Shown: positions 33,630 to 54,040 of the stretch, piece after piece | Layout of the letters: each line of letters opens with the position of its first letter | Position numbering within the stretch: position 1 is the first letter of the stretch | Origin: Thermorudis peleae | GTDB taxonomy: Bacteria; Chloroflexota; Chloroflexia; Thermomicrobiales; Thermomicrobiaceae | Length of the DNA: 64,000 nucleotides | Direction: 5' to 3' | Assembly (NCBI RefSeq): GCF_000744775.1 | Contig: NZ_JQMP01000003.1 | Coordinates: forward strand, 1,240,001-1,304,000 | The notes under the pieces: generated by a model | The model's database searches: none | Seen by the model: only the letters and a program-made list of their open reading frames with translations | What the model was told of the DNA's origin: nothing | Program-made: the position numbers and the translations under genes

Positions 33630-33917
33630 AAAAGGCCTGCCGCCCTTGTGGGGGCGACAGGCCTTCCTGCTGCCGTGGTTCCACCCCAGTTCTGCTGCCA
33701 TCGCCACTGAGAGCATCACGAAGGGCAGCAGCCCTCGTTCACTGTCTGATAACGGAGACCCCGGATGAACTACTTGCCTAGCGCGTTCGCTCATCAGCTC
33801 ACGGGTGGTTGCCGCCCAGTTTCTCAAGCAAGGCTTGCAGCCAGACGACCTTGCCTCTCTGATGAGAAACACTCGGACGACCTGTCCCGGTCATCGCATC
33901 ATGCGCATTCGCTTGTC
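33630..33917 (-). promoter_or_regulatory. T-box riboswitch of thrS
   Basis: On the minus strand the leader has a stem I base CTCATCAG (33866-33859) pairing with CTGATGAG (33797-33790), with a candidate specifier ACC (Thr) at 33809-33807. A stem III follows (CTGCTGCC/GGCAGCAG). The T-box core TGGGGTGGAACCACG (33688-33674) carries the UGGA bulge that pairs with the tRNA end. The terminator hairpin AAGGCCTG/CAGGCCTT (33665-33632) ends in TTTT. Uncharged tRNA-Thr should stabilise the antiterminator and switch thrS on. Confidence 0.88.
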
Positions 33918-43799: not shown

Positions 43800-44807
43800 T
43801 TATGAAGGGATTTCCCGTGCCTTTAACCAGGGCATCATTGCCCGCAGTTGCTCGCCAACCTTCTCGATGGGGTGATTGAGCGCCTCCTGGCGCATGCGGT
43901 AGAAGTTCGGGCGCCCGTTTTCGTTCTCGGCGATCCACTGCTGGGCAAAGCGTCCGCTTTGAATGTCTTGCAGGATCTGGTGCATCGTCTCACGGACGCG
44001 CTCGTCAATAATTTTCGGCCCGCTTACGTAGTCGCCGTATTCAGCAGTATCGCTGACCGAATAGCGCATGAACTTGAGGCCACCTTCGTAGATCAGGTCA
44101 ACGATGAGCTTCAGTTCATTCAGGACCTCGAAGTAGGCCAACTCCGGCTGGTAACCAGCCTCGACAAGCGTCTCAAACCCCGCGAGGATCAAGTGGCTGA
44201 CGCCGCCGCAGAGGACGGCTTGCTCACCGAAGAGGTCGGTCTCGGTTTCTTCCTTGAATGTCGTTTCCAGTACGCCAGCTTTCGTGCACCCAAGGCCCTT
44301 GGCGTAGGCGAGGGCAATCTGCTTCGCCTGGCCGCTTGCGTCTTGATGAACAGCCAGAAGCGCTGGCACACCGATGCCCTGAGTGAAGAGGTCGCGCAAC
44401 ACATGCCCTGGGCTCTTCGGAGCGATCATGGTGACGTCGACATCGGGCGGTGGGACAATGCGGCCATAGTGAATGTTGAACCCATGGGCGAACATCAGCA
44501 CTTTGCCTGGCTTGAGCTCAGGAGCGACATGCTCGTCGTAGACGGGCTTTTGGACGTGGTCGGGAATGAGCATCGAGATGACATCGGCTCGCGCGGCTGC
44601 TTCGCGAACAGGCAAGACGTCGAAGCCATCGGCTTGCGCACGTTCGCGACTGCGGCTGCCTTCGTGCAAGCCGACGACGACCGTGATGCCGCTGTCACGA
44701 AGATTTTGGGCATGGGCATGCCCTTGACTGCCGTACCCTAAGACGGCAACCGTCTTCCCTTGCAGGTACGAGAGATCAGCGTCTTTATCGTAGTAGATAA
44801 CGGCCAT
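43800..44807 (-). CDS. ilvC: Ketol-acid reductoisomerase (class I)
   Basis: A 335-residue KARI, the second common step of valine and isoleucine synthesis. The NADPH-binding Rossmann motif is [20 protein letters not shown], followed by [20 protein letters not shown], whose charged residues fit NADPH preference. The metal-site region has [20 protein letters not shown] followed by [16 protein letters not shown] and [20 protein letters not shown]. The length is that of the short class I form. It is the third gene of ilvB-ilvN-ilvC, 31 bases after ilvN, and so falls under the leader attenuator upstream of ilvB. Confidence 0.98.
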
Positions 44808-44838: not shown

Positions 44839-45357
44839 TTATGCGACGACCTGCGGCTCCTTGACCATCACTGCACGGCTGCCTCGTGCCATGGCGACGA
44901 CGCCCGTCCGCGCGACTTCTTTGATGCCGTATGGTCGGATCATCGTCAAGAGGGATTCGATTTTCTCTGACGGCCCAGTGACCTCGATGATTAACGAATC
45001 AGGGGCTGCATCAACGATGCGTGCCCGGTAGACATCCGTGACCAAGCGCATAATGTCAGAGCGTGTCCGCTCTGTTGCGGTTACTTTAACAAGGGCTAAT
45101 TCGCGCTGAATGAGATTCTCGTCGGTCACGTCTTGGATCTTGATGACTTCAAGAATTTTGTACAGTTGCTTAACGAGTTGTTCGATCTTCTGATCGTCTC
45201 CTTTCGCGACCAACGTGATGCGCGATAATCCAGACGTCTCACTTGGGCCGACGGCAATGCTATCGATGTTGAACCCACGTTGCCGAAAAAGGCTAACGAT
45301 CCGGTTCATCACGCCAGGCTTGTCTTCGACGAGCACGACCAGCGTGTGGCTGCGCAC
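44839..45357 (-). CDS. ilvN: Acetolactate synthase small (regulatory) subunit
   Basis: A 172-residue regulatory subunit. The N-terminal ACT domain starts [20 protein letters not shown] with [20 protein letters not shown]. This part binds valine for feedback inhibition in relatives. The C-terminal half ([40 protein letters not shown]) is the second conserved domain. The GTG start at 45357 lies only 3 bases after the ilvB stop, so translation is coupled to that of the large subunit. Confidence 0.96.
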
Positions 45358-45360
45358 GGC

Positions 45361-47094
45361 CTACCATTCCCCTTCCGGCTCATCGATCATCTCGCGGAAC
45401 GAGCCGCCTGACGGAATCATTGGATACACGTTCTCTTCCTGATTCACCACGAATTCGATCAGCGCTGGGCCGCGGAAAGACTGGGCCCACGTAATTGCTT
45501 CATCGACTTCAGCCGGACGTGTCACCCGCCGCGCCGGCATGCGGTAGGCCTGGCCAAGCAGGACATAATCCGGGCTGCTGATTGGGGTCTCAGAGTAGTT
45601 CCGGTTGTGGAACAACTGCTGCCATTGTCGCACCATGCCGAGATAGCCGTTGTTAATAATAGCCACCTTAACGTTGCATCCCTCATCGACGATAGTGGCG
45701 AATTCGTGGAGTGTCATCTGCACGCCACCATCGCCAACAACGCACCAGACCTCGGCTTCCGGCCTGCCGAGCGCCACGCCCATCGCTGCCGGCACAGCAA
45801 AGCCCATCGTGCCCAGCCCGCCAGAGGTGATCCACTGGTTGGGGTAATCACAGCGATAGATTTGGGCAGCCCACATCTGGTGCTGACCGACATCGGTGAC
45901 CACGAGCGCGCGCCCCTCAGTGAGCGCATGCAAGCGGGCCATCACGTACTGCGGTTGCAAAGCTCCGTTGGGGCCGGATGGCTCCGTGCGAATTGGTCGA
46001 TACCAGCTGCGGATCTGCTCCAGCCATTCGTCATGGCGCAATGGTTCGAGTTCTTCGAGGAGCAGCTTCAGGGCTTCGCGCGCATCGCCCACAACCGGGA
46101 CTTCAGTCTTCAGCACTTTCCCGATCTCAGCAGGATCGATATCGATGTGGATGATCTTGGCGTGCGGGGCGAACTCGCTCGGTCGTCCGGTAACGCGATC
46201 GTCAAACCGCATGCCGATCCCGATGATCAAATCGGCTTCGTGGATGGCCCGGTTCGCATGTGCATACCCGTGCATCCCAACCATGCCTAGGCAGAGCGGA
46301 TGCGAAGCAGGGAAGCCGCCGATGCCGAGGAGAGTTAGCCCGACTGGAATCTGCGTGCGCTCTGCAAAGGCGATCAACTCTGACGTCGCTCCACTGATGA
46401 GAATGCCGTGGCCAGCGAGGATCAGCGGGCGCTCGGACTGGCGAATTAATTCGGCGGCTTTGCGAATTTGTCGCCGATGCGGAACGATTGTTGGCTTGTA
46501 TCCTGGAAGGTTGAGCGGCTGCGGAGGGGCAAGATACCCCTTTGCGAGCTGTACATCTTTCGGAATATCGACAAGCACAGGGCCGGGGCGACCGCTCCGC
46601 GCTAGGTAAAACGCTTTCTGAATTGCCGGACCGATTTCCTCTACACTACGGATGACCATGTTGTACTTGGTAATCGGGATGGTGATGCCGGTAATGTCGG
46701 TTTCTTGAAAAGCGTCCATGCCAATCACATTCTGAGGCACTTGACCGGTAATGGCGACAATCGGAACCGAGTCCATCATTGCCGTAGCGATGCCCGTGAC
46801 CAGGTTGGTCGCTCCTGGTCCCGACGTTGCCAAACACACGCCGACTTTGCCTGTGGCGCGCGCGTAGCCATCTGCGGCATGGGCAGCACCTTGCTCATGA
46901 CGCACAAGGACGTGGTGGATCGGAAACTCCGGCAAAACGTCATAGAGAGGGATAACGGCTCCACCCGGGTAGCCAAAGATGAGATCGACTCCCTCGCGCA
47001 CGAGTGCTTGACAGATGAGCCGAGCACCGAGTTGTGGTCCAGCATGCGTTTCGGCTGTCGTGGGCGGCGATGTTGGACGCGTTTCAACGGCCAT
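45361..47094 (-). CDS. ilvB: Acetolactate synthase large (catalytic) subunit
   Basis: A 577-residue ThDP/FAD enzyme for the first step of branched-chain amino acid synthesis. The catalytic Glu is in VLVRHEQGAAHAADGYARAT, the FAD region in GMRFDDRVTGRPSEFAPHAK and the ThDP-Mg motif in VVGDGGVQMTLHEFATIVDE, with NIx-type end VKVAIINNGYLGMVRQWQQL. The ATG at 47094 has AGGGAGGA 8 bases upstream. The start lies 38 bases after the attenuator terminator stem. Large and small subunit genes are adjacent, as usual. Confidence 0.97.
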   Translation of the reverse strand: MAVETRPTSPPTTAETHAGPQLGARLICQALVREGVDLIFGYPGGAVIPLYDVLPEFPIHHVLVRHEQGAAHAADGYARATGKVGVCLATSGPGATNLVTGIATAMMDSVPIVAITGQVPQNVIGMDAFQETDITGITIPITKYNMVIRSVEEIGPAIQKAFYLARSGRPGPVLVDIPKDVQLAKGYLAPPQPLNLPGYKPTIVPHRRQIRKAAELIRQSERPLILAGHGILISGATSELIAFAERTQIPVGLTLLGIGGFPASHPLCLGMVGMHGYAHANRAIHEADLIIGIGMRFDDRVTGRPSEFAPHAKIIHIDIDPAEIGKVLKTEVPVVGDAREALKLLLEELEPLRHDEWLEQIRSWYRPIRTEPSGPNGALQPQYVMARLHALTEGRALVVTDVGQHQMWAAQIYRCDYPNQWITSGGLGTMGFAVPAAMGVALGRPEAEVWCVVGDGGVQMTLHEFATIVDEGCNVKVAIINNGYLGMVRQWQQLFHNRNYSETPISSPDYVLLGQAYRMPARRVTRPAEVDEAITWAQSFRGPALIEFVVNQEENVYPMIPSGGSFREMIDEPEGEW

Positions 47095-47131
47095 CGGTTT
47101 GATCCTCCCTTCACCCTTCCAGGTAAACAAT

Positions 47132-47214
47132 TGAGCCTCCCGCGTTCGGGAGGCTCACGAGTCTGCTGCTTGCGTTCCGTTTTGCGTTACGGCCTCGCCC
47201 TGCCTCCCGAACGC
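47132..47214 (-). promoter_or_regulatory. ilv attenuator: terminator and competing antiterminator
   Basis: Minus strand: the terminator is TGAGCCTCCCG-aacg-CGGGAGGCTCA (47157-47132) followed by ATTGTTT. An upstream segment GCGTTCGGGAGGC (47214-47202), inside the leader-peptide frame, is perfectly complementary over 13 bases to GCCTCCCGAACGC (47154-47142), which is the terminator's 5' arm and loop. The two helices cannot coexist. This is the layout of translation-coupled attenuation. Confidence 0.85.
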
Positions 47215-47357
47215 CCGAGTGGCTCCGTAATGCCTACTACGATGCTAAGGAGGAGAAGAGCGAGCGAAGAGACAAGGATAGCATGAGCACTAACCAGCCG
47301 CACGCTATTCGGCTGGTGCAACAGCATCGCTTGTTGCCGTGATTGCCCTGTGCTCAC
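47187..47357 (-). CDS. ilv leader peptide, 56 codons
   Basis: GTG 47357 to TAA 47187, with AAGGAG exactly 8 bases before the start. Residues 27-43 read ILVSSLALLLLSIVVGI: 12 of 17 are Leu, Ile or Val. This is the control-codon cluster expected for branched-chain amino acid attenuation. The rest is polar, ending in a basic tail. The antiterminator strand (47214-47202) lies at codons 48-52, just beyond a ribosome stalled in the cluster, and would be covered by a ribosome waiting at the stop codon. An internal in-frame ATG at 47327 could also start the peptide. The gene precedes ilvBNC and has its own strong promoter. Confidence 0.85.
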   Translation of the reverse strand: MSTGQSRQQAMLLHQPNSVRLVSAHAILVSSLALLLLSIVVGITEPLGRSGGRARP

Positions 47358-47383
47358 GCACCCGTCTCCTTACCGTTAGCATC

Positions 47384-47412
47384 AGCGTAGCAGGCATTCG
47401 CTGTGCTGTCAA
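47384..47412 (-). promoter_or_regulatory. Sigma70-type promoter of the ilv operon
   Basis: Minus-strand TTGACA (47412-47407), 17 bases, TACGCT (47389-47384). Transcription should start near 47377, giving a leader of about 280 bases. Between here and the permease gene ending at 47568 I see nothing recognisable. Confidence 0.8.
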
Positions 47413-52653: not shown

Positions 52654-52763
52654 GGCGCTCATCAAGAGCGGTGGAGGGAACGGCCCGACGAAACCCGGCA
52701 ACCAGCGCGCCAGCGCCAGGTGCCAATGCCGGCGGAGTGCAGAAGCTCCGCACGATGAGCGCC
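52654..52763 (+). promoter_or_regulatory. SAM-I riboswitch (S box) of metX
   Basis: P1 is GGCGCTCATC (52654-52663) with GATGAGCGCC (52754-52763). Inside are the class signatures ATCAAGAGCGGTGGAGGGAA, GGCCCGACGAAACCCGGCAA with CC, and AGGTGCCAATGCC. A terminator follows within 12 bases. High S-adenosylmethionine should turn metX transcription off. Confidence 0.95.
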
Positions 52764-52802: not shown

Positions 52803-52912
52803 ACTCCCTCCACCACAACCAGTGATTACTCGACGGCGATTGCGCTGTGCGAGGGGAGAGTTTGTCGCACATCCCATATTTGGATGGTGCATTGGAGGGA
52901 GCAGACGCACCG

Positions 52913-54040
52913 ATGACCGTAACAGCTGTGACCGCCCCGTGTATTACAACACCAACGATTGCCCGCATTGCGACGCCGGATAATCCCTTCGTTACTGAAG
53001 GAGGGGCTGTTCTTCCTATCGTTGACATTGCTTACGAAACCTGGGGAACACTGTCACCAACCCGCGATAATGTGGTGATTGTCGCCCACGCATTGACGGG
53101 CAACAGCCATGTTGCGTCCCACGGCCTAGGTGATGAGCCAGGTTGGTGGGAGCCAATGGTTGGCCCTGGGGCGCCGATTGATACGAACCGCTACTTCGTG
53201 ATCTGTAGCAATATCCTCGGCAGCTGTTATGGCTCGACTGGCCCCCGCTCGATTGATCCGCTGACTGGCCGCCGCTATAACCTCCGCTTTCCCAAGATCA
53301 CTGTCCGGGATATTGTGAATGCCCAAGCACGGTTGCTTGACCTCCTCGGCATTCAGAAAGTCTTTGCTGTGGTCGGTGGCTCCCTTGGAGGCATGCAGGT
53401 GCTCGAGTGGGCAGCGATGTATCCCGAGCGCGTCGAGCGCATTATCCCGATCGCTGCATCTGGCCAATTCAGCGATCAAGGCATTGCATATAACGAAGTG
53501 CAGCGGCGTGTCATCATGCTCGATCCTGCGTGGAACAACGGAGAATATGAGGATGGTCAGGGACCGGCAACGGGTCTAGCGATTGCCCGGATGCTCGGTG
53601 TCATCACCTACCAGTCTGATGAACTCATGACGGCGAGGTTCCATCGCCGCGAAGAGGCGCGGTATACCGCATGGCCAGAATTTCTCGGCCGGTACGACGT
53701 TGAGGGTTATTTGCATTACCAGGGCGAGAAGCTCGTCCGGCGCTTCGATGCCAACAGCTACCTCTATCTGACACGGGCGATGGATTCACACGACCTGGGC
53801 CGGGGACGCGGTGGCTACGATGCCGGCCTCGACCGCATCACCGCGCGCGTGCTTGCCATTGGCATTCGCTCCGATATCCTCTTCTGGCCAGCGCAAATCC
53901 GCGACATGGTTGAGCGGCTGGCACGCCTTGGCAAAGACGTGACCTATTGGGAGCTTGATTCTCCCAATGGCCACGATGCGTTCTTAAAGGACTTTGACCA
54001 GATTGGTCCAGTGATTGCCGCGTTCCTCAGTTGTCCGTAA
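52913..54040 (+). CDS. metX: Homoserine O-acetyltransferase
   Basis: A 375-residue alpha/beta hydrolase that acylates homoserine for methionine synthesis. MetX features are VDIAYETWGTLSPTRDNVVI, VAHALTGNSHVASH, WWEPMVGPGAPIDTNRYFVI and CSNILGSCYGSTGPRSIDP. The nucleophile elbow is VVGGSLGGMQVLEWAAMYPE; the late triad His is in DSPNGHDAFLKDF. The ATG at 52913 has GGAGGGAG about 11 bases upstream; an in-frame GTG at 52847 is less likely. The acyl donor (acetyl- or succinyl-CoA) is not certain. It is under a SAM-I riboswitch and next to hom and asd, the two enzymes that make homoserine. Confidence 0.95.
   Translation: MTVTAVTAPCITTPTIARIATPDNPFVTEGGAVLPIVDIAYETWGTLSPTRDNVVIVAHALTGNSHVASHGLGDEPGWWEPMVGPGAPIDTNRYFVICSNILGSCYGSTGPRSIDPLTGRRYNLRFPKITVRDIVNAQARLLDLLGIQKVFAVVGGSLGGMQVLEWAAMYPERVERIIPIAASGQFSDQGIAYNEVQRRVIMLDPAWNNGEYEDGQGPATGLAIARMLGVITYQSDELMTARFHRREEARYTAWPEFLGRYDVEGYLHYQGEKLVRRFDANSYLYLTRAMDSHDLGRGRGGYDAGLDRITARVLAIGIRSDILFWPAQIRDMVERLARLGKDVTYWELDSPNGHDAFLKDFDQIGPVIAAFLSCP

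Follow-up and report, generated by a model that had tools for sequence, protein, structure and literature searches.

Transcription attenuation mediated by a translating ribosome is a classical mode of control for the ilv operons of enterobacteria. In the ilvL and leuL leaders of Escherichia coli and Salmonella, alternative 1:2, 2:3 and 3:4 pairings are coupled to biased control codons, and ilv-operon attenuation in this group is also covered by PMC1183508. Attenuation of ilv genes has been described in Corynebacterium (PMC10272879, PMC11857589) and ilvB leader attenuation has been predicted in other Actinobacteria (PMC1262725). A survey from 2010 noted that leader-peptide systems had until then been known from Proteobacteria and Actinobacteria alone, to which Firmicutes were added (PMC2965389). 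For Chloroflexi, T-boxes have been reported for the ileS and trp genes of Dehalococcoides (PMC2494555). No earlier description of a leader-peptide attenuator in Chloroflexi/Chloroflexota was found in the open-access literature searched, most subscription papers lying outside it; the initial annotation of this locus, made from the sequence alone, had likewise known of none in what it took to be a Chloroflexota lineage.

The leader considered here precedes ilvBNC in the window, the whole 64,000-nucleotide stretch of Thermorudis peleae DNA that was analyzed. Like the ilvBNC attenuator of Corynebacterium glutamicum and the ilvB-II motif (PMC10272879, PMC11857589), it has the operon order ilvBNC, an upstream ORF rich in branched-chain amino acid (BCAA) codons, and competition among terminator, antiterminator and anti-antiterminator. 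The corynebacterial ORF usually has 15-17 codons, whereas the leaders of Thermomicrobiales mostly have ~27-60; also unlike its counterpart, the window antiterminator takes in both the 5′ arm and the loop of the terminator, and no related Rfam family was matched. The actinobacterial ilvB leaders share with it an ORF with Ile, Val and Leu codons that overlaps a terminator before ilvB (Seliverstov et al. 2005, PMC1262725). Their mode of regulation is unclear in that study, whereas the window leader has an explicit, covarying alternative pairing. A similar leader before ilvB of Streptomyces coelicolor is reported to have been insensitive to codon changes (PMC1262725), which counts against an attenuator reading. 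With the enterobacterial leaders (PMC1183508) the window leader shares the pairing logic and the biased control codons, but the leu leader there is biased to CUA and the Thermomicrobiales leaders to GTA, CTT and ATT, and sequences and gene order differ. The ilvB-OMG and Leptospira ilvB motifs have been proposed as BCAA-rich upstream ORFs before ilvB in other phyla (PMC10272879); the window leader matches no Rfam model. It may thus be regarded as a sequence-unrelated addition to the classical ribosome-mediated attenuators, one that would extend a mechanism known mainly from Proteobacteria, Actinobacteria and some Firmicutes to Chloroflexota.

Anatomy and predicted switching of the ilvBNC leader

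All elements of the locus lie on the minus strand. The promoter consists of a -35 box, TTGACA (47407..47412), and a -10 box, TACGCT (47384..47389), separated by a 17-nt spacer; the -10 box is weak and absent from the promoter scan's list. A Shine-Dalgarno sequence, AAGGAG (47366..47371), stands 8 nt before the GTG start codon at 47357 of a 56-codon leader ORF (47187..47357, stop codon included), which encodes VSTGQSRQQAMLLHQPNSVRLVSAHAILVSSLALLLLSIVVGITEPLGRSGGRARP. Codons 27-43 (47229..47279) form the control-codon cluster, in which 12 of 17 residues are Leu, Ile or Val and which includes GTA GTA, CTT, CTC, ATC and ATT. Twenty-nine nucleotides past the stop codon lies a GC-rich intrinsic terminator, TGAGCCTCCCG-AACG-CGGGAGGCTCA (47132..47157), with an 11-bp stem, an AACG loop and the weak U-tract ATTGTTTAC; the tract is stronger in family f3. 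The ribosome binding site of ilvB, AGGGAGG (47104..47110), follows. The three genes of the operon were identified by equivalog models as ilvB, acetolactate synthase large subunit (45361..47094; TIGR00118, 767 bits), ilvN, its small subunit (44839..45357; TIGR00119), and ilvC, ketol-acid reductoisomerase (43800..44807; TIGR00465).

The alternative pairing is set by two further segments. Segment 2, GCGTTCGGGAGGC (47202..47214, codons 48-52), is the 5′ strand of the putative antiterminator and a perfect 13-base complement of GCCTCCCGAACGC, the 5′ arm plus loop of the terminator, which would form the 3′ strand. Segment 1, CTCGCTCTTCTCCTCC (47249..47264), is predicted to pair with segment 2 if no ribosome covers it. 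The promoter, the ORF with its Shine-Dalgarno sequence, the composition of residues 27-43, the 13-base complement and the terminator were all found as first annotated. The leader RNA folds more stably than its shuffles (z = -5.2), none of 200 shuffles matched the best complement of segment 2 by score, and its duplex energy reached p = 0.003, the floor for 300 shuffles.

Taken with the conservation, covariation and codon choice described below, which are read from DNA sequence, this anatomy makes it very probable that ilvBNC is controlled by a ribosome-mediated, leader-peptide transcription attenuator, as the initial annotation had proposed. In the cell, stalling, termination and the amino acid response would then proceed as follows. 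A ribosome would translate the 56-codon ORF while RNA polymerase transcribes the leader. With ample charged Leu-, Ile- and Val-tRNA, it would reach the stop codon and cover segment 2, leaving the 5′ arm free, so that the terminator forms and transcription ends before ilvB. Should one of these charged tRNAs run short, the ribosome would stall at codons ~32-43, blocking segment 1 and freeing segment 2, which could form its 13 bp with the 5′ arm and loop before the 3′ arm is made, giving read-through. If the ORF were not translated, segments 1 and 2 would pair and the terminator would form by default. The pathway would thus appear to be transcribed only when Leu, Ile and Val run short.

These states were also obtained by constrained folding, an equilibrium calculation in which the ribosome is assumed to cover 9 nt beyond the A-site codon and the RNA downstream is folded codon by codon. 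In the window leader, P(antiterminator) is 0.92-1.00 with the A-site at codons 32-44, and P(terminator) is 0.92-0.96 once the ribosome has reached codon 46 or any later position up to the stop codon. Without a ribosome P(terminator) is 0.92, because segment 1 pairs with segment 2. The leader combines a cluster of end-product codons, an intrinsic terminator and a mutually exclusive antiterminator with, by folding prediction, a terminator that forms by default in the absence of translation. Across the order, the contrast between stalled and terminating states (P(terminator) <0.3 when stalled, >0.7 at the stop codon) was predicted in 19 of 26 genera and a ribosome-free P(terminator) >0.7 in 22 of 26; equilibrium folding gave no switch in 7 of the 26, which counts against the attenuator.

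The terminator could alternatively be driven by a riboswitch that binds a ligand or a tRNA, such as a T-box or a ppGpp riboswitch, with the ORF incidental. T-boxes are common in these genomes, with one before leuA, and ppGpp riboswitches govern ilv genes elsewhere (PMC10272879). However, the leader has no Rfam match at any useful score: scans at the gathering cut-off and with E up to 5 returned chance matches only, the T-box (RF00230), which senses tRNA charging, was not found in it, and no covariance model of the amino-acid leader families, ilvB-OMG included, matched with E up to 5. Nor is a conserved aptamer seen outside the ORF tail and the terminator, whereas the open frame and its control codons are conserved. 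A riboswitch is accordingly considered exceedingly improbable here.

Conservation and covariation across the order

Among named organisms, the closest relatives of the window genome are Thermomicrobium and Sphaerobacter, in line with the Chloroflexota placement first suggested. A DNA-level search with the leader found the terminator alone conserved in close relatives, and the comparison was therefore anchored on the IlvB protein. The protein was found in 60 relatives, every one of the same order (Thermomicrobium/Sphaerobacter-like, Chloroflexota), and the regions upstream of ilvB were compared in 49 genomes, the window's own included. In nearly all 49, a dense Leu/Ile/Val cluster lies within a short ORF, and a GCCTCCC...GGGAGGC hairpin comes after the ORF. 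An automatic rule assigned 43 of them. Four of the six others have the same leader just below threshold, one has the leader but yielded no terminator, and for the sixth (G027) the pattern of segment 2 and terminator was found separately. A fixed detector of an ILV-rich ORF plus a T-tailed hairpin recognized 35 of the 49 real upstream regions, compared with 0-1 of 49 in each of five rounds of dinucleotide shuffles and 0 of 49 on the reverse strand. The leader ORFs lie at the same place in relatives, and 41 of 43 genomes keep a promoter of the form TTGACA-N16..19-TAnnnT at a similar distance from the leader, with TAGGCT, TACTAT or TATGAT as -10 box. A clear Shine-Dalgarno sequence precedes only 14 of the 43 leader ORFs, which counts against the attenuator reading.

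Segment 2 usually starts ~9-16 nt past the last control codon, near the stop codon. Duplex energies were computed for pairing of the terminator's 5′ arm plus loop with the sequence that follows the control codons. In 16 of 26 genera the duplex of a leader's own segment 2 with its own arm and loop was significant against shuffles (p <= 0.05; Fisher 7e-18). Matched partners averaged -20.7 kcal/mol and permuted partners -17.8 kcal/mol, and none of 20,000 permutations over the 26 genera was as good. When the core was held constant and only the following 6 nt (stem top plus loop) varied, 2 of 20,000 permutations did as well. Because the terminator stem does not involve the loop, the covariation supports the antiterminator in a largely independent way. 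One instance is genus g4, where the arm reads CCTCCGG and segment 2 CGGAGG, while other genera have CCTCCC and GGGAGG. Leaders such as G026 and G030, whose segment 2 has only weak complements, count against the pairing. Absence of conservation of the ORF, its BCAA codons or the complement had been named at the outset as grounds for abandoning the attenuator; on comparison the order proved to conserve all three, and in the case of the complement through covariation.

The evidence is weaker for short ILV-rich ORFs that precede ilvB in further families of the class and in certain other Chloroflexota. These class-level matches (families f7, f8, f11, f13 and f14; Ktedonobacteria, Caldilineae) are suggestive but were not taken as proof, several being without a good complement.

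Control codons and the encoded peptide

The clusters favor codons that are rare in the genes they precede. Among 40 distinct leaders, GTA makes up 75% of cluster Val codons vs 1% in the ilvB genes of the same lineage, CTT 36% of Leu codons vs 7%, and ATT 64% of Ile codons vs 14%; CTG is avoided (9% vs 43%). The preference follows the reading frame: when each genus is represented by one leader, the in-frame count of GTA is 43, with 0 in the other frames, that of CTT is 39 vs 2 and 2, and that of ATT is 56 vs 1 and 1. The order of the codons varies between clades, so what is kept is codon identity and not one fixed RNA string. At the level of sequence, this choice demonstrates selection acting on the control codons as such. 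Theory holds that attenuators choose, among synonyms, those codons that respond most strongly to starvation (PMC1183508), and the bias to rare GTA, CTT and ATT would offer a natural test of it in a distant lineage. The window genome has tRNA-Val(UAC) for GTA, besides Val GAC and CAC, and reads CTC and CTT with tRNA-Leu(GAG). From the theory (PMC1183508), tRNA-Val(UAC) and tRNA-Leu(GAG) would be expected to lose their charge first. The genes for tRNA-Phe(GAA), tRNA-Val(UAC) and tRNA-Leu(GAG) adjoin in this genome (contig C3:1446576-1446837), so that the readers of the leader-favored GTA and CTC/CTT codons are neighbors.

The same data bear on the possibility that the ORF product itself functions as a small hydrophobic (membrane) protein, with the hairpin serving as an ordinary terminator or in RNA stability. 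The hydrophobicity of the cluster, AILVSSLALLLLSIVVGI, would suffice for a membrane segment, and conservation is seen in the C-terminal part of the ORF, but the N-terminal halves differ between genera, the end of the ORF covaries with the arm and loop of the terminator, and the extreme synonymous choice (GTA 75% vs 1%) is unexplained by protein function. The leaders of leuA and cimA, moreover, match their own pathways in amino acid. A small-protein function is thus judged highly improbable.

In family f3, the codons past LVLI in the ilvB leaders (those of G033 and G043, for example) encode LPIIGS or LPIGS and fold into a hairpin within the ORF, CTCCCG-ATT(AT)-CGGGAG, which is kept across genera and is possibly a pause hairpin. 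The persistence of the motif LVLI-x-LP-[IV]-GS across genera of this family would also suit nascent-peptide arrest, in which the peptide, perhaps with a ligand, stalls the ribosome in place of slow decoding of starved codons. Arrest nevertheless merits very little credence: the conservation of LPIGS is explained by the hairpin that it encodes (CTCCCG-ATT-GGGAGC), and between clades L, I and V replace one another freely in the cluster, with the rare codons retained. Slow decoding of the control codons remains the preferred explanation of the predicted stalling.

Sister leaders at leuA and cimA

A search of the relatives for the pattern of segment 2 plus terminator also matched leuA, cimA and leuS operons. 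The extent of the system had been underestimated when it was annotated at ilvBNC alone, as putative sister attenuators also precede leuA and cimA in this genome. The start codon of leuA (TIGR00973) is at 657607 of contig C4, and a T-box (RF00230, 108 bits) lies before the gene at C4:657867-658096; the locus with both T-box and leader peptide is C4:657607-658096. The T-box, absent from the ilvB leader, is followed here by a second attenuator, of the leader-peptide type. The leader ORF 3′ of it ends in SLLAGLVLSQPRGGATRSAGMRQR and a stop codon, with CTT CTT ... CTC GTC CTT, and the terminator CGGCCTCCC-CGCGC-GGGAGGCCG lies shortly before leuA. The same tandem of a T-box and a Leu-codon leader is found at leuA in genera g2, g3 and g6. 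At cimA, which encodes citramalate synthase of the isoleucine pathway (TIGR00977; start codon at C3:1233737), the leader (C3:1233530-1233737) contains IRILAIIRPRLGG, with ATC, ATT and ATT, and a terminator at C3:1233672-1233699.

The agreement between leader and pathway recurs in relatives, which carry SLLRLSLSRPRGGA with CTT/CTC before leuA and IAIIGIIRPRVAG with ATT/ATC before cimA. In the leuA and cimA leaders a GC-rich hairpin (GGCCCC...GGGGCC or GCCCCGC...GCGGGGC) directly follows the control codons. Equilibrium folding of the window genome's own leaders gave only a partial switch at leuA and none at cimA, and support is consequently lower than for ilvB. The leuA leaders of family f2 were set aside: they have a GGCCCC-type hairpin along with Leu codons, but a second terminator is lacking. 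In genus g3 (L166, L172) the pattern also follows the T-box of leuS, a gene left out of the window genome's set since its own leuS has a T-box only.

These leaders would probably form an amino-acid-specific attenuation regulon of branched-chain synthesis in Thermomicrobiales, in which ilvBNC senses Leu, Ile and Val, cimA Ile and leuA Leu, the last with two unrelated sensors of tRNA charging in series. From the stretch GAACUCGC, the T-box specifier would seem to be CUC; with CUU and CUC codons in the leuA leader, a single tRNA-Leu(GAG) could be sensed in both states, uncharged and charged. The tandem, the most novel part of the set, would allow the sensing of uncharged and charged tRNA to be compared on one transcript.

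Two other RNA elements were seen in the window. A T-box leader lies directly before thrS (33647-33903, minus strand); at 77.7 bits it is under the gathering score of 93, and the default Rfam scan did not report it. A SAM riboswitch (52656-52761, plus strand; 85 bits) stands upstream of an ORF at 52847-54040 that looks like a homoserine O-acetyltransferase gene.
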